Assembly: GCA_030062745.1 (NCBI GenBank) | Contig: CP099841.1 | Coordinates: forward strand, 27,221,398-27,285,397 | Reading direction: 5' to 3' | Source: Capitulum mitella | Taxonomy: Eukaryota; Arthropoda; Thecostraca; Pollicipedomorpha; Pollicipedidae | Length of the DNA stretch: 64,000 bases | In this document: positions 5,236-64,000 of the stretch, one piece after another | Layout of the letters: each line of letters starts with the position of its first letter | Numbering within the stretch: the stretch's first letter is position 1 | The notes under the pieces: model-generated | The model's database searches: none | Told to the model about the DNA's origin: nothing | The model's input: the letters and a program-made list of their open reading frames with translations, nothing else | Program-made: the position numbers and the translations under genes

Positions 5236-5853
5236 AGCTGCCCGGTAATCCTTACAGATTGCACACCATGCGCAGAGTCGAGGGTAGGGTAAGGTTAAAG
5301 CACGAGTGTAGTTTCCAATTTCGCCACACCAGGGTGATATTCGTTCTTTTTCTCGCCACTAGGAAGAGTACATAAAAATACTGACATTCGCTAGGATGAT
5401 TCCGCTCAAGAACGCGCGAGTGTAGTTTCCGATTTCGCCACCAGGGTAATATAGGTTAGGTTAGGTTAGGTTAGGTTAGGTTAGGTCTGAACGAATTCAT
5501 CTGCTTTCCATCGTGGTTCGGCAATTCTGGAGAAAGTGGTCCTTTTTTCATGATTGACCTCACCTGTGACGTCATCAGCGGGTCAAAAGTAAAAAAGTGT
5601 GTAAGTCACAGAAACGAAACGTTTGGCGCTATCAACTGGCGTTCGAATCAGCCGAATCAAACTATTGGTTATCATACCATTGGTTCTTGAGCGGAACCAT
5701 CCTAGCAAATGTCAGTATTTTTACATACTCTTGCTAGAGAAGAGAAAAAGAACGAATATCGCCCTGGTGGCAAAATCGGAAACTACACTCACACGTTAAC
5801 CTTACCCTTGACTCAGCGCATGGTGTGCGATCGGTACGGATTACCAGCTGCCC
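5236..5853. mobile_element. Fold-back MITE with GGTAATCC ends, 8-bp TSD and TTAGG core
   Basis: The element proper is 5244-5845 (602 bp). It starts GGTAATCC and ends GGATTACC. The terminal arms are inverted copies over more than 100 bp; both carry GCACACCATGCGC and the blocks GTGTAGTTTCC and ATATTCGTTCTTTTTCTC. It is flanked by a perfect 8-bp direct repeat, AGCTGCCC (5236-5243 and 5846-5853). There is no coding capacity. Its centre holds a TTAGG tract. The flanks on both sides are CpG-poor while the element is CpG-rich, which supports insertion into an older block. A second family member lies at 53845-54162. The TSD length fits hAT (8 bp) or a MULE-like element. Confidence 0.85.
5454..5486 (+). 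repeat. Interstitial telomere-like (TTAGG)n tract
   Basis: About six and a half perfect units of the pentamer TTAGG, the canonical arthropod telomere repeat, lie in the middle of the fold-back MITE. Position and context point to an internal MITE component and not to a chromosome end. Confidence 0.9.
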
Positions 5854-14934: not shown

Positions 14935-15390
14935 CAATAAGGGTCAAGGTCATCAAAGGTCGAGGTCAAACAGCTTGTGACCTGATCCAGATTTGCTTTG
15001 CAATATGTCGGTTTGTATAAAATATGCATCCAGAGACCCTAATAAAAACGCGTGTGCGCACACTGATGCGCTCACATATACAAGGGTCGGTCAAAGTCAA
15101 GGTCATTTAAGGTCAAGGTCAAATATCTTGCGACCTGGCCCAGATTTGTTTTTCAACATGTCGATTTGTATGAAATATGCGTTCAAGGATCCTGATAAAA
15201 ACAAGTGTGCGCACATGGATACGCTTACATATATACCAGGGTCATTTCAGGTCACGGTCATCAAAGGTCAAGGGCAACTATTTTGTGACCTGGTCCAGAT
15301 TTGCTTTGTAATATGTCGATTTGTATGAAATATGCATTCAAGGACCCCACTAAAAACACGTTTGGCACATTGATACTCAGATGTATATGC
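14935..15390 (+). repeat. Three tandem copies of a roughly 150-bp AGGTCA-rich unit
   Basis: The copies begin near 14938, 15082 and 15237. Each opens with a cluster of AGGTCA-like half-sites, continues with TTGTGACCTG..CCAGATTTG and an ATATGTCGATTTGTATGAAA block, and closes with ACATATAC-type sequence. Divergence between copies is moderate. There is no coding potential; the frame through them arises from the shared period. Confidence 0.8.
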
Positions 15391-28600: not shown

Positions 28601-29691
28601 GGCAACCGGCATAACATACAGCAATAAACTGAGAACTACGTCGTTCGCAATCCCCGTCATGACTTTCAGGGATATCAACACGACTTGTATGGCGATGACT
28701 GGAAAGAAATAGTGCGAAATCTGATTGAAATAATCGAGGGATTTTCTGAAATTCTCGGGACCGTTTTCCGGTTCAGTTTTCCATCGCATCCGAGCAGGGG
28801 CGTGGATTTCTATAAATGATGGGGGGGCGATCCGAGGGCCTGACAACCTAACCTCCTCCCAAACGTGGATTTCTCAACGGATTTAAACCACTTTAGTTTG
28901 ACCAACGGAAACAGAAGCTTTTTGCTACTTGGCGGGAAGCAGCAAGGGCGAGAATTCGACGTTACAAGCATTGGATCCCACGAACATTGGATGATACGAG
29001 CATTGGCTATTATGACGGCTTGAACATTACGAGCTTTGGACACTGCGGTATAGACCCACAGCAACTCAGTCCATTCAGTAATCTGTAATCGAAGATTTCC
29101 GTACACTCTGAAGGGAACTGTCACATACGCGCTATAATTGGCTAATCTGGCATTTTCTGAAGTAATCCGGACTCGAAATTTCGAATGTAATCCGGATTCG
29201 CTGTGTGCGGTCGTGGAAGAGCCGCTTGGAGTCCTGACTTGCCTCCGGAGGGAAGTCAGACTAGTAACCCAGTCTTGGGCGATACTTTAAGTTTTCACAT
29301 TTTCACAGACTACTTTTGCTATATACGCAGTACAGAAGAGCTCATCAGCTTTCCTACAAAGGCAAGAAATGGTGACACTACCGGATGATTTTCGAAGGAA
29401 ATGGAAGTATATTTCCCAGTAAGTAAACGCGACCGCAACGGGCGGCGCCATCTTGTTTACACTGCCTTCGCTCCAAGGATGACCCGTGCACTGTTTAAGG
29501 TTTGATGACGTCACTAGTAAATGATACTAGAGGCTGCAATCCGATCAGCTGATGTTCACAGGGCATAATGTTGCGGTGAAGGAGGAACCCCGCGCCGGAG
29601 GCTCGGTAAAGAATACTAGAGGCCGCAGGCTGATGAAGGATGTGATCGGTCTTGGCCCTGTCCAAAAGGGGCTAGACCGTGCGACTAAATA
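25609..29691. other. About 4.1 kb without a recognised gene
   Basis: No exon of a known family is visible on either strand. A loose array of ACGAGCATTGGAT-like words lies near 28940-29040. The sequence near 29570-29680 (GAATACTAGAGGCCGCAGGC, then GTGATCGGTCTTGG) is related to the arms of the fold-back element at 36129-37194. Frames up to 125 codons (28469-28846, - strand) have no domain I recognise. Confidence 0.4.
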
Positions 29692-29768
29692 GGTAAGGTT
29701 AGGGTAGGTTAGGTTAGGTTACGTTACGTGACGTTATGTTAGGGTTAGGGTTAGGTTAGGTTGGGTTA
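29692..29768 (+). repeat. Interstitial TTAGG-like tract
   Basis: Degenerate units of GGTTA/TTAGGG/GTTAC, about 75 bp, including TTAGGGTTAGGGTTAGG. It follows the sequence related to the 36-kb fold-back element. It is not a chromosome end because unique DNA continues on both sides. Confidence 0.8.
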
Positions 29769-29984
29769 GTCATCTTTTTGATTGGAAATGGACGCAGCGG
29801 TTATTTTACATAACAGCACCGCTTTCGCGACAAATGTTGCTCATATAAGACGAAGACTACGTACCGCCGATTGTTATTGGACGATTGACTGTGACGTCAG
29901 CAGGCATTAATCAGCTGATCTGTTGTGTCATTGTCGGTAATTAGATATAGAGGTGGTGTATTACAGATGGAAAGTGAATGTTTG

Positions 29985-38040: not shown

Positions 38041-38082
38041 GTACTGGAAGATTAAGGATCATTACTGGTTCTGCACCCCAAA

Positions 38083-39866
38083 ATGGCCGAAGTCATAGTT
38101 CTGAGTGATGATGACACCACTCCACCTGGCAGTGTCACAAAGGCAAGAGAACGAGCTCAGGTTCCTGGAAGCCAGACACTCAAGAATGGACGCACGGTCG
38201 GGATGCGTTGCTTTCCTTGTGACCGTGTTAAACCCTCCGGCACGCGCAATGGGGACTCCGTCGCATCCCCACGGGCTTGCACGGACGATTCGCAGTGTTT
38301 CGCAGTCGCGGACTCGGAAGATTCCGTCGAGGAAATCGAGGTCCACGAGAGCAGCACAAGCCAAAACCTGCGTCGCCCGAGTGACAGGCCGGCGTCGTCC
38401 CCGTGTCCGTGGCCGAACAGAGACCCGGTCCGGGAGGAGACGGTCGTTGTGAAGCGCCGCGCCACCGACGCGGATTCAGCGCCACCTGCGAAACGGCGCT
38501 ACGCGTCCGCGCTGAGCGATGGTCGTGCCGGAGCCTCCCGTGAACCGGTCGCGGAAAATGGCCACGTGAGCCCCCGGAGGCTCGTCACGAGCGCGGCCGT
38601 GAAGACGGCTGAGGGCCTCTCGGGCGAAGACAGGGCCGCGGCGACCGCGGTGCGTGCCGCTGTCGGGTCGACTGCGACGTCCCCCTGCCAGGACAGGGTC
38701 CGAGTGTCCGCGGTGGAGTCGCCACAGGCGTCTCCCGGGCAGGACGTCGCGGCGCCGGACTCGTGCGAGCAGCAGTTGGACGAGCTGTGTGCTGTGCTGA
38801 GGCCGCTACTTTTCGGCGCCGAGACGCGCATCGTGGATCGGCTGCGGCGGCGGCACGCGGCGGTGCTGGCGCTGAGCCCGCGCGGCTCCAGCCACCGCCA
38901 GCGCCTGCTGGACGCATCCCAGCGGTGCGCGGAACGGCTGCGCAAAGAGCCGGGCAGCCACTTCACCGTAGTACGCGGCTTCTTCGAGCAGCTCAACCAA
39001 ATCAAGCTGGCGGCGGCGTCGGTCTGCTCGTTGACGACCGCCGCGGCGCCGGCGACCGACGAGAAGGCGGGTGCGGACGGGGCGCCGGCGGCGCCCGCGG
39101 CCGATCACGCCGAGCAGCAGGAGAAGGAGGCGCGGCGGCACCGCCGGCACGTGGCTAAGCTGGAGAAGACGCTGCGCCGTCTGGAGCGCGAGATTGCCCG
39201 CCAGGAGGAGCAGGATGTGGACTGGGACGACGACGCCGGCTCGGCGTACTTGGTGGGCGCGCGGCTGAAGCGACGGTACGTGCAGGTGTACGAGTATTAT
39301 TGCCGCATTGTGGATGCCGCGGAGGAGGCGGAGCGGCTGGGTGCGCGGCGCATCCACTTCAGAGGCACACGCTACCCGGAGATAAACCGGCGCATCGAGA
39401 AGTTCGTCAACCGGACGCGCGAGTTCCCCGACTTCAAGGACGTGCTGGGCCTGATCGAGAAGGCGAACCAACGGGACGGGCTGCGGCTGGGCCCCGGCGC
39501 CGTGCACGACCAGGCCAAGGACGCGTTCGAGGTGCTGGGCACGCAGCTGCAGCAGCGGCGGCGCGCCGCGCTGGCCGAGTCGATGGACGCGCTGTGCGGC
39601 GCCGACGCCTGGCGCTGCGAGGACCCGGCCGACGACGACCCCAGCCTGGGTCGCCGGCTGGCCGAGAGCGCCGAGTGCGGCCAGAAGCGGCTCAACAAGG
39701 TCTTGAGCGAGTTCGTCGAGCGCCAGGAGAGCGCGGCGGACGAGCGCCGGCGGCGACGCGCCGCCGGCGGCGTCTCCGAGGACCAGGACGACGACGATGA
39801 AGCCGAGGAGGAGGAGGAGTCGGAGGTCACGGACGACGAGCAGGGGGCGCTGCCGGCGGAGGGACT

Positions 39867-39904
<38 letters not shown>

Positions 39905-40032
39905 GCGGCGGCTCGGGGGCAAGTGATGATGAACCGGACCGGTCAGACGCCGAAGACCGCGAGGAGCCAGGCCCGGCGGACGAACAGGAGACGGAGTCGA
40001 GCACATCACAGGAGACCGAGCCGAGCGCGTAA
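38083..40032 (+). CDS. Daxx-like histone H3.3 chaperone
   Basis: A 649-residue protein from ATG (context CCAAAATGG) to TAA in one coding exon; a splice acceptor at 38039-38040 implies a spliced 5' UTR. Daxx proteins are nuclear chaperones that deposit H3.3-H4 with ATRX and also act as SUMO-dependent transcriptional corepressors. Seen here: an N-terminal SUMO-interacting motif VIVLSDDD (residues 4-11), a bipartite nuclear signal (KRR 124-126, AKRRY 136-140), a four-helix bundle domain (about 226-316), a coiled segment (about 345-377) and the histone-binding domain (about 380-550) with the hallmark FRGTRYPEINRRIE (426-439). Then come an acidic tract (566-586), an 11-Gly run (596-606) and a Ser/Glu-rich tail. 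The C-terminal SUMO motif of vertebrate Daxx is absent. Length compares with about 740 residues in human. The ORF is very GC-rich, unlike the CpG-poor flank. Confidence 0.93.
39868..39900 (+). repeat. (GGC)11 trinucleotide repeat coding for poly-Gly
   Basis: Eleven uninterrupted GGC codons (Gly 596-606 of Daxx) separate the acidic tract from the Ser/Glu tail. A pure run is prone to length polymorphism. Confidence 0.95.
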
Positions 40033-40145: not shown

Positions 40146-43035
40146 AAAGTTTCAAAGGGCTAGCGAGCGGAGCGATGAGTTAGCTTACGATCACTGTCTG
40201 TTGTCTGATGCTTGGACCAATTGGGACATCACGAAGAATTGCGGGTTTTGCTGTTTTTTCATCGAACTGCGAGTTGGCCAGCGATGACGCAAAGTTTACT
40301 TCGATCTCCTGTGGCTGCGAATGGTTTCGTCATGTTTCTGAAGTGTCTAAAGGCAAGGTTATGTTTGATATTACTCCACTCATCCAGTGTGTGGAGGGTG
40401 GCAGGTTGTAACTTTCGTAGGTTGTGACCGTTATGGTCGGTGTTTATGTCGTCCGGAATGGCGTGGGATACAGGTTGCTCGCTCCACAGAGCGTGAGCAT
40501 TTCACAGAGCACAAAGTCATCACGGAGTATATGAGTTTGGCGCGTGTGGCGGGTACGCACGTGCTGCCCGCGCCTACCATTTTTACGCAACCGTGGTGTG
40601 ACGCCTGTGAGCTTGATTCAGGCAGAAGTAATATGCTGGAAAATATGATCACATTCTTAATTTCCACGAGCACTTTTTATAGATGAGTTTGTGGCTTTAT
40701 GCATGATGTAATGGTGAACTCATTACGCGAGGCTCTGACGGAGGAACTGCCCACTACTTCCTAAAAGGGCATTTGCATGGTGGACAGAGTGTCAGCCAAA
40801 ATATCACGTGTCGGCAATGTACGGCGGAAAGTCGACCACTGGTGATAAGCGACCTCCCAGCAGTGCCTTGTGAAACCAAATATATGGTACAACGGAAGTA
40901 CCTTTTTCAGCGAGAGGCGTTTCACGGGCAAAACTCGATACAGATTCGTGACAAAATTTGCCGATATTTCGCAGATTACAACTAGGGGCTGTTCGCTAGA
41001 GGTCTGCGGACTGAACGCGAAAGCTGCATCAGGGGGAGAGGGGAGCGCATCCCAAGCTGTTTCTGAACTTAGCATTATGCATGTGGACGTCGGCATTAAA
41101 GCCTTAAAACCTTCCGCCAATCTACGAGCCGCGCCCGGCAAGGCCTTTGATTAGATTACACATCCCAGCGTTGACGGATACAGCAGTCAACGGCAAGGGG
41201 GCGGGAGTGGGGGACAGCTGCCCCTCCCTAATTGCGATGGGTCTGGGCCAAGACTATGTTTCCGCCCCCTCATTTACCATCTTGGGGGCCGTGTAAGAAA
41301 TTGGGCAAAAGAAAATGGGGATGAACGCGATGAACACGCTAACAGCCAAAAAAGAAAGGGGAATGTAAGTATGCAGGCAAGGAAGAAGGCACATGGCATG
41401 CGTGTTTTTTCAAGTCTTACTTTGTTAAGGGCCTCAGCTTTCTTCCGGTAGGGGCCTCAAACAGGTTGGACCTAAAACTGGCCAGAGACCGCGACCTTAC
41501 AATTTTTAAGGGGCCTCGCGGAACGGATCCGGCTGGCCCATCCCGACACACAGTTCGCGCCCTGCTAGGGGGCCTCGTACCGATTGTCACTCAAAAGCAA
41601 GACAGGTCCCGGGAACCTACAGTTTTTTCGAGAGGCTTCATAGAATGGACCCAGGGGCCTTCACTAAACCAGTCCGGGCCTCGGGGGGCGCCCCAGCATC
41701 CGTTCGTAAGAGGGCCTTGCGCAAATTACGCTCAAAAGTGACCCAAAGACCGGGAACTTACAGCTTTTAAGGGGCCTCGCGGAATGGACCCGGCAGACTT
41801 CTGACAGAGTTCGGACCATGTCAGGGGGCCCCCGGCTTCCACCCGAGAGCGGAAGCTGATTTGTTAGCATTATCCTCCATCTTCAATACTGTATTGGTTC
41901 GTGAAGGCACGTCCACACAATGGCCCTTAGGGCTCAGTCAGTACAATGTTAGCATATAAAAGACATCATTGTGTTATGTGTCGTTATATATTAACGCAAG
42001 GACATTGCATTATGTACTCAGTCGATGTTAGGGTTTTCCCAATTTTTGTATCAAATCGCACGACAATTAGACTTGGATTCCGTCGCCACCGCGCCAGTTG
42101 CTTCGGCTCCCGACCAGCTGTCAGGCTGTGGACGTCAGGAGTTCACGGTGGGACCAAGCTGTGCCGCACCTGCCGAGTTTAACGACTGAATGCCAGAGTT
42201 CGCACAACGCACGACTGGATCGTGGACTTACGTCTCCCGGTCGGGCGAAATACGACTTCCATTACGTGAAACATGGACTTTTTGGGGATGAGGACTCTTC
42301 GTAGGAAAGGGGGCCACTCAAGATCAAGGGGCCTCGAAATTCTGCTTCGCCCCCCCCCCCCATGACCAAATACGATCCGCCACCACTGCCCAACGGCGAT
42401 GCTCGAGGTGGCAGATGCAAACCCCTCATTCATTCCTGAGTTAATCTCCAGCGCGGGTCCCAAGCGACTGATATCCCTCTATGAATATCATCAATCGACT
42501 GGTCAGATGCTCGTGCTTTAGGGGTGCTTTCGTCCGGCCAAGAACGCAAGAATCTCAGTTTGACTGGATATAAAGCAGATTTTGAGCAAATTCTTTCCGT
42601 GTGAACCGGCAGACATAAAAATAAAATCCCGAAAACGCCGGGGGTCGTTGCCCACCCATTCACCACCCGTCGCGTTTCAGGATGTCTAGAAAGTTCCAGT
42701 GTTATGCAGCAGATGAAGTAAAAATATGAAACATGCAATACCATAATAATTGTAATATTATGATATTACAATATTGCATGACTACAGTAAATCGTCACAT
42801 GGCTGACAATTGTGCTAGGCATATACGTGTCGAGCTGCTACGCGACCGCGCAAGACGCCTGAAATCCTTCACACTCTTCACCAAGTATTCCGCTTGACCT
42901 TGCATCCGCTAGAGATTCATACCGAGAACGAGAGGTTCTGTTACCGGACGAACCTCTTGGTACTGAAGCAGCCCAACAACCTGTCGTCACCGACGTTCAA
43001 AATGCCAAACAGGCTCGGCACCGACAGCGAGGAAA
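40146..43035. other. Daxx-PDHA1 convergent intergenic region
   Basis: No gene is recognised. It holds a G-rich/C-rich palindromic stretch near 41190-41230, a degenerate tandem repeat (41443-41850) and a C-run near 42345. Frames up to 126 codons lack known domains. Confidence 0.5.
41443..41850 (+). repeat. Three degenerate tandem copies of a 120-140 bp unit
   Basis: The marker block GGGGCCTCGCGGAAYGGAYCC recurs at about 41509, 41629 (diverged) and 41770. Each is preceded by a GACCNNNGACCTTACARYTTTT-like block and followed by a GGGGGCC block. There is no coding evidence. Confidence 0.6.
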
Positions 43036-46400: not shown

Positions 46401-49400
46401 CGTGGCGCCCATCTCAAGCGTCCAGCCGTGGCATCGGTAGGCCGTGATGACCGAGTCGCCGTCGATCAGCGCCGCCTTCATGCCCACACAGTTGGCCTCC
46501 TGTGCCGGGCAGACGACGCGTCAGAGTGCGCCGTCCCCCCCCACCCCACCGGCAGGTCACGGACCACAACCGGTAGGTCACAGACCACGACCCGCAGGTC
46601 ACGGGCCAGCAGCGACTCTCAGACTGGCAGGTCAGGGACCGGAACCAGCAGCTCACGGACCAGGAGCGACCCTTCGATCTGCAGGTCACGGAGTACGGGC
46701 AACCCCGACCGGCGGGACGCGAACCAAAAGCGTACCCTGACTGGTAGATCACGGGCCAGGACCGGCCCTTGCACCACATCAACCCTTGAGTTTCGACAGA
46801 CAAACAGAGTTTCGGCCAACAGCAGCTGACGCCACTGGCACATTTGCGGCGAACGCCTACTTTTATCCCTAAAAAAAAAACGTACCGTCCGAGCTCTGCC
46901 GACATTTCCATCTTTTCGCACACCACACGGCACGCCCGTCCGCCGCCGTACTCCACGGACGTACCTGGCCCGAGTAGAGGTGACAGAAGCCGCGGATGGC
47001 CTTCTCCTTGTACAAATTGCCGGCGGCCGTCTCCATGCGCCGTATCGTCTGCATCTGGTGGTACAGCTTGAGCGCGTCGTCGCGCGTGCAGGTCACCGTC
47101 CGCGACGGCTCCGAGTCGGCCCGGTGCATCGCGTACGGCTGCGCGCGGAGACATCTCGTGGGCAACAACGGAACTACAGTATTCAGGCACGCCCGCAAGA
47201 TCTTGCTGAATGCACACGCATGGACGTGTGTCCGCAACAAACAGGATATTTGCTTGACAACTGTCTCCACCAGAATGGGTGCAACTTCGTTTTGATGTGC
47301 TCAAGACACTTCAAATGGTGGAAATCTCAAGCATCCCTTTATCGACACATGATGTAACGTTAGACAGGCTTCTTTCTTGTTATCAGAACGCTCGCGGAAG
47401 ACAAAGCAAGATGCCATGAGAAGTCCTTGCATGCCCAAATTGAGGTAAAGGCTTCGTGTCGCACAACTTGGCAATGTTAACTCAGGGCTCAAAGACTCTC
47501 ATCAAGGGACAATCTGCGAACACTACAGCACCTTATTTCACACCAAGACGCCGCATCCGCTGCGTAGACCTCCATTTCTAATGTACTTACGATAGTAAAT
47601 TAAGTCCAACATGGTTTTTATTGGTTCCGGGGTCCATCCCATGGCTTCGGAAATGAGTCTTCTTTATACCCGGTGAACTTGGTTTTCACACGTCAAAGGT
47701 ACGTATAATGAATATACGACTCGACATTTCCGCTCTACGCCGAAACGTGGCGTCAAATATTTACACATATTTTTTGCGTGTACAGCCAAAATAATCCTAC
47801 ACCGGGTACTCCCAGCATAACGCGCGATATCTGCTTCCATAGTCGTATTCACGACACACGAACAGCCGCACCGCCCACTTCGACGCTCACTACTGTCCCA
47901 CCTTTGTCTCGAACGTGACCTCGGTGCTGAGGCTCTTGGCTCCGGACACCAGCGGAGTGATCAGTTTCTGAAACGGCGCCGGCACGTCACCGTCGTCAGC
48001 GCCAGGCACGGCCGCCGTCGATCCGCCGCGGCCTTCCCGCGCCGATCAAGAGCTTTACCCGACCGAGCCGAGGCGCTCACAGTCCAGCGGACTCCCCGAA
48101 TGGGGCACCCGCACAGCCTGGGGGCCGGGCCGAGCGGTGCTGATTCGGCACCGACGCGGAAGGCGGGCAGAGCGGCACCCGGCAGCACAGTATGGGAGAC
48201 ATCTGACAGCACAATACCGGCGCACCCGGTGCCTAAGCATGAGAGGGGGACGGGGGCGTAAGGGCACCAAAAATCACGGCTTTGGAAGACACTGCTCCAG
48301 CATCACGGCCTTAGGCAAGGTCTAGCTCTAGCACCCCGCACCAAGAGAGCACGATTCCGACAGAGGCAGCAGTACGAGCAGAGCTGCGACCCGGGACGGG
48401 GCGCTGCAGGGGCTCGAGACGCACGCAAGCGACGAAAACAAGAGTAAAAATGTTTCAATGTGCACCCGTCTGAACAAAGCGAAACTCATCACGAACGGCA
48501 CTGGAATGAAAGCTTACAACTCTGAAGGTGTAGCGCTCCGTTTCATGCTTAGCTACAGGTATTTTGCCCCTCAAACAAAAGAGATAAAGCACACAGGGAA
48601 CACGTCACTCCCCTCCCCCAAAGAATCAAGACATTTTTAACGTCCGTGACGAAATGATGTCTGAGTATGAATAAATTAAAAACTTTTGAACGAACCCCAA
48701 ATGAGTTGTTATTCGTATCACGTCTTTCGTATCTATCTAAAAGGAATAAATTAAAAACTTCCGAGCCGACCCCAGATGAGTTCTCCTTCGTATGACGCCT
48801 TTCGTATCTATCTAATAACTCCAGCACACACTGAGCACGCCAAATGTGCGGCTAAAACATGATTAGCGATACAATGGAAAACAAATGAGTCTACTTCTGA
48901 AAAGTACATCAGGTGGGCACGTTACCAGTGATTTCACATATTTTTTCTCATAACCTTCCACTGTCTTCTGTATAAGGCATGCAGAGCAACGCTTGTTCAG
49001 GCCGCAATGTTTGCAATGCATGCAATGCTGGCACATGATCAAGGCCGACCACGATTTCGCGCAAAGTACGTACCGCAGATAGACAGCTACTAACGCCATT
49101 CACCTTGCTCCACGATGCTTAAAACGTGCGTGAGGAGGCAGCTGTTGCCACGAGAAAAATGAGGGAAGTCATCTCAGTGTCAAGGCAGGCACATAAAGTG
49201 AAGTATAATGGAAGGATTGGAATGGGCTTAACCCATAACCAAAACTGAAGATTAGGCAACTGGCAAAATGAAAGATGAAGTTACTACAAAATCCCTCCAG
49301 CCCTAGCTACCTTGGGATGAGATACCTCAAACTGGAATGTGGGTCTGAGTCACAACTACTGGATTCCTGATGTTTCAGAACAACAGAATCGATGAAAACG

Positions 49401-53835: not shown

Positions 53836-54171
53836 CAGTCTGCCGGTAATCCTTTAGAAGCGCGCGCCATAAACCAAGCACACTGGATGACACATATACG
53901 GCGCGCGTGGCAAAAGGAGACGTCAGCTGTTGTAAGAAACAACAACATTATGCACTGGAGCTCCAGGTTGTGGTCACTATTGTAACCTAACCTAACCTAA
54001 CCTAACCTTACCTAACCTAACCTAACCTAAAAGTAACCTACTGTGTAAAACAAGCGCATAGTAGGTGATCTACAACTTGGAGCTCCAGTGCATAATGTTG
54101 TTGTTTCTTTTTGTCGTATGTGTCATCCATGTGCTTGTTTATGTGGCTTCTAAAGGATTGCCCAGTCTGCC
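53836..54171. mobile_element. Fold-back MITE with GGTAATCC ends, 9-bp TSD and CCTAA core
   Basis: The element is 53845-54162. It starts GGTAATCCTTTAGAAG and ends CTTCTAAAGGATTGCC. The arms share ACAACAACATTATGCACTGG and GAGCTCCA in inverted order. A direct repeat CAGTCTGCC (53836-53844 and 54163-54171) flanks it. Its centre is a CCTAA tract. It has the same end sequence and same design as the element at 5244-5845. The opposite arm of the surrounding palindrome lacks it, which confirms both boundaries. Confidence 0.9.
53983..54030 (-). repeat. Interstitial telomere-like (CCTAA)n tract
   Basis: About nine CCTAA units with one CCTTA variant, at the centre of the fold-back MITE. Confidence 0.93.
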
Positions 54172-57549: not shown

Positions 57550-58001
57550 TCTCACGGAGGCCGTTCGCTGTTTTTGAACAGCTGGATGAAAGTTGACCAC
57601 TCATAGTTAAATTTACCCATGCTGTGGGTCATACGGGCTATGTATCTCCGAACTGCTATGCATTTGGACGAGTGATTAACGAACTCTTGTGATTTTTGAA
57701 TGAATTTAATAGACCTGCAGTGCAAAATGTACCCCTCGCCCAGTAAAACAAGAACGTGAAGCGCTGGAGAAGAGGGGTTATTGCAGTAGGCAGAGCTTCC
57801 TAAAATTATGTTTGGTCTGGAAGATGAGCGATGCCTGTCATGTTTGGGAATTTTCTCCAAAACCGAGCCACCGCAGGACAGTGCAAAAATAAACGGTGTA
57901 CAGTTTCTCTCCTTCTAGGATACCTGTCACAGTCACATGTGTCTTTAACCCTTTAGTGCCCAATTTATGTCCTGTAACATTTTGCCAAATTTGATGCCAT
58001 A

Positions 58002-58007
58002 TTTATT
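58002..58007 (-). promoter_or_regulatory. Poly(A) signal AATAAA of the piggyBac gene
   Basis: AATAAA on the minus strand, inside the element about 450 bp after the transposase stop and 40 bp before the left TIR. Confidence 0.6.
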
Positions 58008-58224
58008 AGGTCAGTACTTTGGCAAAAAGATAGCTATAGCACCCGAAGCCCCTCATTCGCCGGTTAGAGCTCAGTAGGGGTCAATATATGTATGGCCATG
58101 GGCACCTGGGCGGTCGAAAATCAGCTAGAAGTTGGGGAAAAAGGTGTCGACAACAACTGACAAACAACAAGCGTGTATTCTTGATCAGACAGGACACGAA
58201 CATTGATATGAGTCTGCAGAGCTC

Positions 58225-58555
58225 ACTGAGGATCCCAGTCACGTCCGTCAAGTTCTCTGGACCCATGTATCCCAGCCTACAACCCTTCGGTGTAGAGTGG
58301 GACTCAGCATCCAACGCACAGGTGCACATTACAGTTCTGGCACCCTGTCTTGCGGATGGCCAGATTAGGCCACAATCTAGCACTGGCACACGCATCAGGA
58401 TTACAGTAAAAATCCCAGTCCCGTCTCACAAGTCCCACAGGACCCTCCAGTACCCAACCTACGACCCATCCGCGGTGTGGAACGGGACGAAGCATCCAAC
58501 GCAGAGGTGGACTTGACACTTCTGGCATCCTGTCTTGGGGTGGCTCTTGCAGCGC
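58225..58555 (-). repeat. Tandem duplication of the transposase C-terminal cysteine-rich segment
   Basis: About 183 bp are present twice: the outer copy near 58230-58370 and the inner copy near 58412-58550. GCATCCAACGCA (58309 and 58493), TTCTGGCAYCCTGTCTTG and AATCCCAGTC.CGTC recur at that offset. On the minus strand the outer copy still reads KTGCQNCNVHLCVGC, matching KTGCQKCQVHLCVGC of the protein, but lies beyond the stop codon. Confidence 0.8.
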
Positions 58556-60420
58556 GACTTGTTAGCGCAGGTCCCCTGCTTGGCAAGGGGGACCACGAGG
58601 TGGTTGACCCCATCAAACCGGATATCCTGGAGGACCCGGACGGCGGCCGATGAGGAGCTGGGACGCCCAGACGGTGGCTTGACGCTCTCTGCCATGTAGG
58701 ACTGAAAGATGGTTTGGATGAAATTCAGCTGGGTTTCTTCGGGGTGGTGGCGTCGGTGGATCAGGCAGGCGTTCTGCATCGTAGCTCCCAGAATCCAGTT
58801 GTAGATGCACCACCAGAACTTCCTCTGCCGTATTCCGATCCGGTAGCACCCGATGTTTTGGTCCATGCGATCTGTTCCTCCCATCGCACGGTTGTACTCC
58901 TTGATGACCTTCGGCTGAGACACACCGATGCGCTTTTTCTCCTTCTGGGACCACCGCTGAATCTCACTGGTGGGCTTCGAGCCGTACACTGTTGACGCCA
59001 CCGTGACGGCGGAGCTGTCTTTCCACCTGGCGACGTTGATGCCCACGCTGGTCTCTGTGGCGACGGAGTTCTCTCCCCTCGGCGCCTTTTTCATTGCAGC
59101 AAGGGACTTCAGAGGGCATTCTCTGAGCTGGTTCTGGCGCATGGTCCCGGCGGAGCCTATGCCCTCCTCCTTCAGGGACTTCATCAGGGGAAAACTGGTG
59201 AAGAGGTTATCCATGAAGACATGGACCGAATCTTGCCGCATCTCTCTTGGCATCCTGTCGACAAGGATCTTCACCGCCGCTCCGCACTTCCCGAAAGCGG
59301 CTTCGTACTCTGGACGCTTCATGATCCCGCCTGCTCCCTGGTACACGTCGAATGCCAGGAGGTACCCGTCCGGGCTGTTGAGGCACCATGCCTTGAATCC
59401 GAACCGGATGGGTTTTCCACGCAGGAATTGCTTGCAACCATGCCGGCCATAGTAGGGGATCATGCTCTCGTCAGCGTCAAGGTCGGTGGAGGTCGCGGGC
59501 CTCTGAAAACCCTGGATGAATTTGTCCTGGATGGCGTCGATGAGGGGACGGAGCTTGGCCATCTTGTCGCTGCGGTCGAGCCGTTGGTTGTCAGCGAAGT
59601 GGAGGACCGACAGGATGGCATCGAAGCGGTTCCGCGACATGACTCGGGCCACGAATTCGACGTGCAGGTCCGGATCGACGGACCAGTAGTGACGACGTGC
59701 TGGGACCTGGTGGTAGCCCGAGAAGAACTGGATCGCCATAACGGCTTTCAGCTCGGCAGCTGGCGGCTCCGGGACGTGCTTCCCACTCCACTGGCTGTAC
59801 CGGCGGATCTCGTGCTGAAGGTGTCGGAAGAAGGCGTCGTCAAAGAAGAACTCAAACACCTGGACAGGCGTCATTTTGGAGAAGTCCTGCTGGGGGTACG
59901 GGCAATGTTCCACCCGCTCCTTGAGGAAGGAAGCCACCTCCCGCTTCCCCCATCTGAAGCCACCTGAGGCTGCAGCTACGTCTTCTTCCTCGTCGGAATC
60001 ATCTCCGCCGCGAACGATCTCAGCCTCCACTTGAAGGAGATTGCGATTGAGGTTGTCGACCGTACCGCAGCCGTCCTCACCCCCTGAGTCACCATCGCTG
60101 TCCTCGCGGACGTCAGGAGGACAAATGAAGATGTCGGTGCCATGCTCTCCATCCTCTTCAGCGAGATAAAGGAGGTCCAGCAGCTCCCCACTTCTGAAAA
60201 TAAGAATAAATTGGAAATGCGTAATATTCGACCACCCGACTCCCCATGGCCATATATATATTGGGCTGTGCAGAAGCCTGCTCAGTTGAGGCGCATCTCA
60301 CTCTAGGGAAACTTTTTCAAATCAGGGGGTTCGAGAGTGATTCTGAGGACACCACAAAACAAAATCTAGCTTCCACCATGATTTAGACGCTCCATAGACT
60401 CACCGGCGTGTTTTCGACAT
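58459..60420 (-). CDS. piggyBac transposase (DDE_Tnp_1_7 type), two exons
   Basis: It catalyses cut-and-paste transposition at TTAA. Exon 1 is 60404-60420 (ATG TCG AAA ACA CGC CG, donor GTGAGT). The intron is 210 bp, acceptor TTATTTTCAG. Exon 2 is 60193-58459. The phases fit and give 583 residues. Residues 1 to about 80 are acidic, with LLDLLYLAEEDGEHGTDIF, as usual for the family. The catalytic Asp residues are D247 (DADESMIPYYGRH), D334 (VHVFMDNLFTS) and D447 (NRAMGGTDRMDQ, with D450). The C-terminal cysteine-rich zinc domain has C548, C554, C562, C565, C570, C573 and H578. There are no stops or frameshifts. A GTG at 60030 would give a shorter 523-residue frame, but the spliced ATG start keeps the conserved N terminus and is preferred. 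The gene sits inside its own TIRs, not under host control. Confidence 0.93.
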
Positions 60421-61651
60421 GTAGGCGTAGATCAGTGTAAAGAAGGATGCACGATATAGGTTGGACACTCCGACCAAACACACTCACAGCTCTTCACTAA
60501 ACCCATGGGGTATATTAGAAGTCCTTTTAGTGGCGACCACTCCGCATCGCTCCACGCAAAATGATCTAGAAACACCGTTATAAATACATCGCTATGGGCA
60601 CTAATGGGTTAATGTTGCGTATTTAATAGACGGCTACTAGTAGGCATCATTCTGTGAAAGATCCTAAGCTGGAGCATGTCGTACTGAAGTCCTATGTACC
60701 TTCGTAAAGACGGTTGTTTGTTTGTTCCCAAGAAAACTTTTTGTGTAAGCCTGATTGAATTTCCCACTTTTGCTGTGCTGTTACTGCCTTTTCTACTTTA
60801 ACCAAAAATTTTATGTACGCCTATCATGAACACATTGGGATATTCCTGAAACTCTGTCAGGCTGCTATGACTGGCTGCTCCTCTTAGCTTACCATTTTCC
60901 AATTGTCGCTTTCATTCAGAAATAATAGACGTTTTATGGTTAGATTCTGCATCGGAGGAATAATGAGTTATCTGCTCAGGTGAAAACGATTTCTGATTGT
61001 TCGTATCCTCTGAGTCTTTGACTCGCATTCTGTTCTTGCGCAGAAACAGCCTTTGAGGACGTGTTGGGATTCGTTCCAAATGAATAGGTCCGTTCAGCCA
61101 TAAAATTTGGTTTAATAACTCTCCTGGCGAAAGGTCTTGCTGTTTCATTGCACTCTGCCATGCTAATGTTGTCGCTTTCCAAAATAAGTTGGTTAGCTTA
61201 GCCTGGATTTGCTTTACATCAGGATTACACTCAGATTTGGCAATGTCATCGTTCAGTTACAGCATGGGTCTCACTATATTCAGCCATTAAGCCTGTGTTT
61301 GTTCAAAATATCGTTTTACCCATCTAATCATTAAACTTTTGGCAGTTATAGCTATATGTGGAACTTCCATGCTGCTAATCATTTCCCATCATTGATTACT
61401 AGCTTTATCCCTCTTATTGCCCCAAATGAATCCAAAAATGATTTCAGTTTTCTTCAGCAGGTGTGGAGCCGGCTCGGGCAAGATCGACATCAAGACAGTT
61501 CAGCTGCAATATTCCCTCCGACTTTCCTAGATAAATTCTGTCCTAAGGAGCAAGTCCCCTTTGCAGCCATGGATTTTGCTTCACGTCCAATGACCTCATT
61601 TTGTCTGCGTAATTTATTTCGGCTACATCGGTAAATAACGTTGGACTCACC

Positions 61652-62865
61652 TCAACCCGCGTACGACCATCGGTCGGTTACGATCATGTCCGACTGGGGG
61701 GGGGGGGGCAGTTGGCCGCCCCCCCCTCTAACTCACGAATGGTTGGTCGCGCGATAAAAATAAGCACACATTTCGAAAGCTTGTGACGAGTAGAGCTCGA
61801 AACTAGTGTCATTTGTTAGTTTTAGATCATATGTAAGCAATTCACGTCCTATATATGTTTTCATAGCTGAGTGCATGAGACCGAGAAATGGCCTGAATCT
61901 CAAGGGCTGTGACTAATAAGGAGGTAAAGGCATCAGCGCACAAGTAAAGGTCCGCAAATGCGGATACACATCTAATTTCTCGAATTTGTTCAATATATAC
62001 GCCGAAACGTTGAGTTAAAGACATGGCAATTTTCGCGCCGGCTGTCGGCGTGCGCTGCAGCTGTAGGCAGTAAGAAATTAACGGGAACAAATTTAAGCGT
62101 TTTTTTTATTTTCGCAAAAAGCCTATCCAAGTAAATGTTATTGATCTTAATGGTTCCTGTGATGGTTTTTCATGCTCAAATTTTGGAAAAATTCATTAGT
62201 TGTCAATCTACAAAACTGGCGGGGCTTTATTCGCGAAAGCCTGTTTATTTCCAAAATATGCAATTTTTAAAAACTTTTTGAGGTTCCTAGTATTACTTAC
62301 GTCTTTGGAAGCCAGTTCTGCCATCTTCTACCCATTCTGAGTAATTCATCGCTGATTTTGACGGTGGTGCATTTTGGTTCACTACTGTTATTCGTGGCCT
62401 GACCTCAGGTCAATGGCTAAAAGTCATTGATGCTTTGCCCAATGACGGTAACTAGGTGTCTGCTTCACTCTACACTAAAAATGTTATGAAATATTCCATC
62501 AATTTCCGAATAAAACGACATGTCTTAAAAATGGGCTTAACCTTAGGTTAATGACCAGGAAAATTACGAAAAATCTGAGATAACAGCTTTGTTGCATGTA
62601 CCACGATCACTAATCCCTGAAAGTATTATTGAGATATCTCGTTTTCCGAAAAAGTTACAGGGACTTTTTTGGACATAGGTCCGTTTGACCTAACCTAGGT
62701 CAAGCACCTAACCTGACCTAAAATCAGAACTTTGACACAAGGTGCGAAAATAATGAAGCAAAAGGTACACAAAGTTTCGTGGCTCTGTGTTCGTTCGTTC
62801 TTTCGCAATCCCGGAAAAGCCTCAGGGGGGGCGGTCAATTGCCCCCCCAGTCGGGGGCGGGTTAA
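61652..62865. mobile_element. 1.2-kb TTAA-type MITE of a second subfamily, inserted in the LINE
   Basis: The right border is GGGCGGGTTAA (TTAA 62862-62865) and the left border is TCAACCCGCG (61652-, one base diverged from TTAACCCGC). Both ends carry a G-run/C-run palindrome (GACTGGGGGGG...CAGTTGGCCGCCCC on the left, GGGGGGGCGGTCAATTGCCC on the right). The interior has AGGTCA/TGACCT words (near 62400 and 62685-62720). Size and design match the 15.7-25.6 kb family but the sequence differs. LINE reading resumes on both sides. Confidence 0.75.
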
Positions 62866-63292
62866 CCCCAACAACTCAATAGGACCTTTAGTCCAGGAGA
62901 GGCCAAGCTCTCCACATATACTTTCCTTCTCCAACGCTTGGTCCCACATTGTTAGCGTCTTTTGGTGGTTCAGCTTAAGTTCACTAATATGCTCAAAACC
63001 GCTATAAATGTTCATGCATTCCTTTAATGAGCATTCTGATTCGTCCATAAAAACCGCCAAGTCGTCGGCGTACGCCAATGTTTTCAGTGTAACTGTGCGA
63101 ACGCGTATCCCTTTCGCCCGTTCCTCTTTCCTGATTTTTGTCAGCAACGGTTCAATGCACAAAAGAAACAGGTGATAGCTGAGGGGACAACCCTGTCTCA
63201 AGCCCCGGTTGCTTACGTAAGGCCAGGACAAGCATTTGTTGACCTGCACCCGAGCGATTGGTGCTTGACCTTGGTTGACAGTTATAGATGTA

Positions 63293-63353
63293 AATATATA
63301 CGTATAAGTAAAAATATGTATACATATAAATATAAATATATACATATACACAG

Positions 63354-63414
<61 letters not shown>
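63293..63414. repeat. Compound microsatellite (ATAC-like, CA, TA)
   Basis: A TA/TAAA-rich stretch, then (CA)n at about 63351-63378, then (TA)n to 63414. It marks the point where the LINE coding sequence ends. Confidence 0.95.
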
Positions 63415-63416
<2 letters not shown>

Positions 63417-64000
63417 TGGACAGATAGATATATCCAGGCCCAGTTAGTGAGTTCCCTTTGACTGCAGTTGATCGAGCGGCAATGTGATAGCCCATTGGAG
63501 CTTGAACAAACTGTCTGATCACGACGGCTGGCAATCGGGTTTACTGGGCGGCCCAATGTGGGCCAAATGAAATGTCTGATTTGACCCTCTTCAAAGAGTG
63601 TTGCGAACGCCCATTGGGCCGTCTTTGGGCCCAAATCCGTGATCGGTAGCCCAGTTGGTACAGCGTTTGTTTTTCCGCAGGCTACTTGACAACTGACATG
63701 TAGAGGGATTGCCTTCTGCGTGACTGTGTCGTTAATGTCGGCACGTTAAACTTTCTCCCCAAAATTATGCCGTTAACCTGGTACGCGATTGGATATAGGG
63801 ACGTAGAAGCCTGAGCAATAAGCACTGCTTACCGCTGTCTCTGGTCGCCACGTATCGCAACAAAACACACGGATCAAACATATAAGGCAACTCTCAATCC
63901 AGAAAAAAATCAAACAGGAGGAGAAAACAACCTCGGAGCTGAAAGAAAACTTGAGCCATTTTTGAAAGCGAAGACCATGGGTCTTTATTTTGAGCTCAAA
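63415..64000. other. Unassigned DNA at the window end
   Basis: No gene is seen. Around 63643-63765 the words GGTAGCCCAGTTGGTACAGCG and CACGTTAAAC resemble parts of tRNA-derived SINEs, but no B box or second border is found. Confidence 0.35.

Follow-up and report, generated by a model that had tools for sequence, protein, structure and literature searches.

A piggyBac-superfamily element of Capitulum mitella with a start codon predicted on a 17-nt exon

Described piggyBac systems and the borders of the element

piggyBac from Trichoplusia ni and piggyBat from Myotis lucifugus share with the element described here the TTAA target and the aligned catalytic Asp residues; an acidic N-terminus is also common to them, and the Cys/His-rich tail of the element may correspond to the Cys-rich C-terminus described for these systems (PMC9499001, PMC7351741). 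piggyBac is about 2472 bp long (PMC10813416), near the 2,668 bp of the element, and the moth transposon likewise has a 3' splice site motif ahead of the ORF (PMC2268245). However, the sequences are remote, and the start codon of the element is predicted on a separate exon.

In primates, PGBD3 and MER85 resemble the element in having an acceptor upstream of one large transposase exon and an AATAAA downstream of it, and their TTAA sites and 13-nt TIRs are comparable with its ends (PMC2268245, PMC3902484). Newman et al. 2008 described the combination of a 3' splice site right before the ORF with a downstream poly(A) signal as a natural "exon trap" (PMC2268245). PGBD3 is described as splicing to the host CSB exon 5, whereas the element bears its own predicted start exon. 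In crustaceans, the Pokey element of Daphnia is a mobile member of the superfamily, whose transposase-gene intron was demonstrated by RT-PCR (PMC3575242); an intron in a mobile piggyBac is thus no novelty. According to that report, the Pokey intron is 68 bp long and is situated towards the end of the gene, where it is followed by an additional 3' exon of 585 bp; conversely, the intron predicted here is found on the 5' side, after a first coding exon of 17 nt. Among the matches listed in a literature search, none described a mobile piggyBac whose first coding exon is 17 nt long, which is weak evidence of absence.

The element lies in a window of 64,000 nucleotides, the whole stretch of DNA that was analysed, and spans positions 57945-60612 (2,668 bp). 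Its left border (57945-57962) is formed by TTAA (57945-57948) and the 14-bp TIR CCCTTTAGTGCCCA, and its right border (60595-60612) by the 14-bp TIR CCCATTAGTGCCCA, read on the minus strand, and a second TTAA (60609-60612). The TTAA target-site duplication of the piggyBac superfamily is found at both ends, and so are its short CCC-initial TIRs, which here start with CCCTT and CCCAT. The two TIRs CCCTTTAGTGCCCA and CCCATTAGTGCCCA are identical at 13 of 14 positions, with one mismatch, and the likeness ends directly past them. When every pair of TTAA sites lying no more than 4 kb from the transposase ORF was scored (16 left x 20 right, n=320), the border pair was the best with 13/14 and the runner-up reached 9/14, bearing out the TTAA borders and the 14-bp TIRs with one mismatch that had been proposed from inspection of the sequence. 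Both CCCTT and CCCAT are among the conserved TIR starts reported in a survey of small animal genomes (PMC10813416), and element length, transposase length and TIR starts all fall inside the range given there. On its sense strand the element has a single AATAAA, located within the left end (58002-58007, minus strand), while a TATA-like TTATAA is found close to the 5' end (60578-60583, minus strand), as a weak hint at the level of the motif only. The motifs of the layout described by Newman et al. are both present as predicted sites, with an acceptor at 60194 before the ORF and the AATAAA at 58007-58002 after it.

Judged from its sequence, 57945-60612 is a structurally complete piggyBac-superfamily element, a known kind of transposon. 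The best explanation, to which we assign a probability of about 0.8, is a complete transposon inserted at TTAA, with a 583-aa transposase encoded on the minus strand and a start codon provided by a spliced 17-nt exon. The pre-mRNA would begin inside the right end of the element; removal of a 210-bp intron would then let the 17-nt exon supply the start codon (MSKTR-R), and the AATAAA close to the left end would terminate the transcript. The enzyme so produced would bind both ends, cut the element out precisely and insert it at another TTAA.

The transposase

The main transposase exon (58459-60193, minus strand, stop codon included) encodes an acidic N-terminus, a DDE_Tnp_1_7 core and a Cys/His-rich tail. 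The original prediction of a continuous transposase frame proved correct, since the minus-strand frame is uninterrupted from 60297 down to the stop codon at 58461-58459, and no lesion, either stop or frameshift, was found across the 583 codons. The predicted spliced product, of 583 aa, starts with MSKTRRSGELLDLL. The 577-aa product of exon 2 matches Pfam DDE_Tnp_1_7 over positions 1-348 of the 349 of the profile (E=2.3e-69), and NCBIfam gave no families. In a phmmer comparison of the transposase with solved structures, piggyBat (E=2.7e-23) and T. ni piggyBac (E=6.3e-10) were the only two distinct sequences with E<=0.001. The protein may also be close to human PGBD3, an assumption on which nothing is built here.

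The Asp residues of the DES, DNLF, GGTD and MDQ motifs are aligned to Asp in both piggyBat and piggyBac, in agreement with the conserved catalytic residues that had been recognised earlier; in the numbering of the spliced product they correspond to D247, D334 and D447, plus D450 of MDQ. The catalytic triad of T. ni piggyBac is D268/D346/D447 (PMC7351741). From residue 548 the tail contains six Cys and three His (C548, C554, H557, C562, C565, H568, C570, C573 and H578), which make it a candidate for the Cys-rich zinc-binding domain of the superfamily. The N-terminus is acidic, residues 1-105 holding 27 D/E versus 11 K/R, a property also reported for piggyBac (PMC9499001). A domesticated host gene, instead of a mobile element, could also display an intact frame and a single copy in the window; however, retention of the catalytic Asp residues, together with TTAA and TIRs intact at both ends, argues against this origin, which is ranked low and regarded as highly improbable.

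The GC content at third codon positions of the transposase is 0.752, compared with 0.457 in the left flank and 0.418 in the right one; for a DAXX-like ORF in the same window the third-position value is 0.829. This long open frame (38056-40032, plus strand), resembling a histone chaperone (Pfam DAXX_hist_bd, E=2.9e-18), marks the beginning of a GC-rich stretch (about 38-48 kb) against a surrounding GC content of about 43%, and shows the genome to be that of an animal. No Pfam family was matched by ten further open frames of the window, most of which lie in the GC-rich part, and no Rfam matches at gathering scores were obtained on the window.

The predicted start exon and its alternatives

The predicted first coding exon is only 17 nt long (60404-60420, minus strand) and encodes MSKTR plus two nucleotides. 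It is followed by a predicted GT-AG intron of 210 bp, in phase 2 (60194-60403, minus strand), whose donor is CCG/GTGAGT and whose acceptor is TTATTCTTATTTTCAG/A. Both are the top-ranked sites on the sense strand of the element: the donor at 60403 leads 161 GT sites, and 180 AG sites are headed by the acceptor at 60194. With both strands counted, donors of this strength number 12 in the whole window and acceptors 15. The weights used derive from general knowledge of animal splice sites and were not trained on this host. With weak sites allowed (donor score at least 0, acceptor at least 3), five in-frame start models were obtained: the 17-nt exon was the best at 22.0, the second, at 15.6, was the same exon with a tandem acceptor 3 nt on, and the third, at 14.1, started from the ATG at 60506. 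The tandem acceptor, AAG, which ends at 60191, is weaker, and its use would remove one serine.

Shuffling of the 419-nt leader gave a measure of chance. In 2000 dinucleotide shuffles, an acceptor as strong as the real one occurred in 33 and a donor in 108, with a complete in-frame start in none of them; in 6000 further shuffles the real summed score was never reached, the best value being 21.3, and 4170 of these sequences were devoid of any model. The 17-nt exon at 60404-60420 with its GTGAGT donor, as put forward in the original prediction, is therefore supported by top-ranked sites and by 0 equals in 6000 shuffles, its splicing being predicted; for the acceptor, the site and the phase were right, but position 60194 still belongs to the intron, as the G of its terminal AG, and exon 2 starts at 60193. 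The open frame extends 104 nt beyond the acceptor, into the predicted intron, so that the frame limit by itself is no pointer to this site. Two features speak against the start in exon 1: position -3 of its ATG is a T, and the leader contains short upstream ATGs. On these data, the transposase start with the best support is that in the 17-nt exon, and the predicted splicing of this exon to the main one is very likely.

In exon 2 the earliest in-frame Met is found at 59874, corresponding to residue 113 of the spliced product, and an unspliced transcript could be translated from this internal ATG into a transposase shorter than the spliced form by 112 N-terminal residues. Indeed, this Met is residue 107 of the 577-aa exon-2 product, just ahead of the Pfam domain, which begins at residue 108, and T. 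ni piggyBac without its disordered N-terminus is reported to transpose still in some cell lines (PMC9499001). However, the frame above this Met remains open, up to the nearest in-frame stop at 60300, and is acidic; moreover, the top acceptor above it joins in phase to an ATG via the top donor. The internal start is consequently ranked low as well, and is held to be very unlikely.

A different role for the acceptor would be that of an exon trap, in which the main exon is used chiefly for splicing to upstream host exons, the 17-nt exon then being either a fallback or an ATG and donor present by chance. The top acceptor of the element does open exon 2, which contains no early ATG, and an acceptor before the ORF with a poly(A) signal after it is the layout that Newman et al. 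2008 described in moth piggyBac and PGBD3 (PMC2268245). Nevertheless, an in-phase ATG and the top-ranked donor are supplied by the element itself, a combination that none of the 6000 shuffles could match, and trapping as the chief use of the exon is unlikely.

Starting again from the 17-nt exon as the genuine start, it may be tentatively proposed, as a rather doubtful extension, that it represents a portable start codon and that expression can follow two routes, one from the element's own promoter via the mini-exon and the other through the same acceptor joined to an in-phase host exon. Should this be true, the element would be a modern representative of the exon-trap ancestor that has been postulated for domesticated PGBD genes, and the arm of an internal inverted repeat that lies in the intron could couple end recognition to the same stretch. 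An acceptor abutting the ORF is a feature proposed to ease the capture of piggyBac by hosts; a mini-exon, if real and common to relatives, would explain why a free-living piggyBac carries an acceptor in this position. Surveys that require a single ATG-initiated frame would label such an element as truncated, or would start its protein 112 residues late.

Repeats, copies and surroundings

A 40-nt inverted repeat is present inside the element, with its left arm at 58082-58121 and its right arm at 60224-60263, within the predicted intron; 33 of the 40 nt are paired, versus 24-27/40 for the best of each of 20 shuffles. A candidate subterminal inverted repeat is found near the left end, with 15-nt arms at 57975-57989 and 58018-58032 and 87% matches. 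The Cys-rich domain of piggyBac binds a palindromic 19-bp repeat inside that transposon (PMC7351741). Inverted repeats in subterminal or internal positions are also described in MER75, MER85, Looper and elements of invertebrates (PMC12324416, a preprint). The internal inverted repeats of the element may represent putative transposase-binding sites.

Part of the 3'UTR (58232-58360, minus strand) is a decayed duplicate of the segment that encodes the tail and of the sequence past the stop codon; it aligns with 58412-58544. Its tail part (58289-58351) has 76% identity by tblastn, with a stop where the real tail has Phe and Tyr where it has His. At the nucleotide level, 14 of 83 coding sites differ from the real tail, distributed over codon positions 1, 2 and 3 as 3/27, 3/28 and 8/28, and 8 of 43 sites differ past the stop, in an alignment with 6 gaps. 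Our reading of this sequence is that the duplication of the tail probably predates the insertion and that only the spare copy degenerated, the real tail having been preserved; the excess at third positions is small. The decayed copy may serve as a built-in control when selection on the real tail is assessed.

Within the 64-kb window, the 18-bp end did not recur when up to 3 mismatches were tolerated, a single match with 4 mismatches being located at 41107, and blastn of the element against the window (E<=1e-3) returned self-matches only, with no second copy or short derivative. A search for relatives gave 49 pattern stretches in viral contigs and 95 in prokaryote genome contigs, none of them confirmed by tblastn. 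A degenerate DNA pattern for GKPI(R/S)FG(Y/F)K had no matches in viral contigs; three matches to it in prokaryote contigs were unconvincing as relatives when compared with the transposase by tblastn, with E values of 0.005 for L001 (a short stretch, 28% identity), 0.58 for L002 and 1.5 for L003.

An unconstrained transposase frame would be expected to acquire about 59 stops per substitution per site, and no lesions were observed. The 95% upper bounds on unconstrained divergence of the 1.75-kb frame are about 5% from stops only, and 2% or 1.3% with frameshifts included, assuming 0.05 and 0.1 frameshifts per substitution, respectively. The intact frame is compatible with recent mobility and fits a young insertion, and it is plausible, from the sequence features, that the element is autonomous and was recently active. 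The view that most piggyBac copies are decayed, expressed in the original prediction, is partly apt: in the small animal genomes surveyed, intact copies are reported for 85 of 212 piggyBac types (PMC10813416), so an intact copy alone is unremarkable. It is also possible, although less than even, that this copy only looks intact and is dead or silenced through disabling changes in its amino acids or ends, a state compatible with the structure preferred here. The one TIR mismatch and the single copy within the window point in this direction; against it, CCCTT and CCCAT are both conserved TIR starts (PMC10813416), and the 583 codons contain no stop or frameshift. As a complete copy, the element is a candidate for activity tests.

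Other repeats are found in the window. A reverse transcriptase fragment (62695-63540, minus strand; RVT_1, E=5e-13), probably a LINE remnant, adjoins AT and AC repeats. A minisatellite at 14943-15376 is made of 155-bp units in 2.8 copies with 80% matches, and a tandem pair of 75-bp units with 84% matches is located at 48669-48815. Finally, the telomere-type repeat TTAGG forms three interstitial arrays (5452-5486, 29690-29769 and 53983-54030), which make an arthropod the likely host, in preference to the lamprey-like one that the GC-rich DAXX gene could suggest; TTAGG is described as the telomere unit in all decapods studied and in most arthropods, and interstitial arrays of it are reported in a crayfish (PMC7859515).
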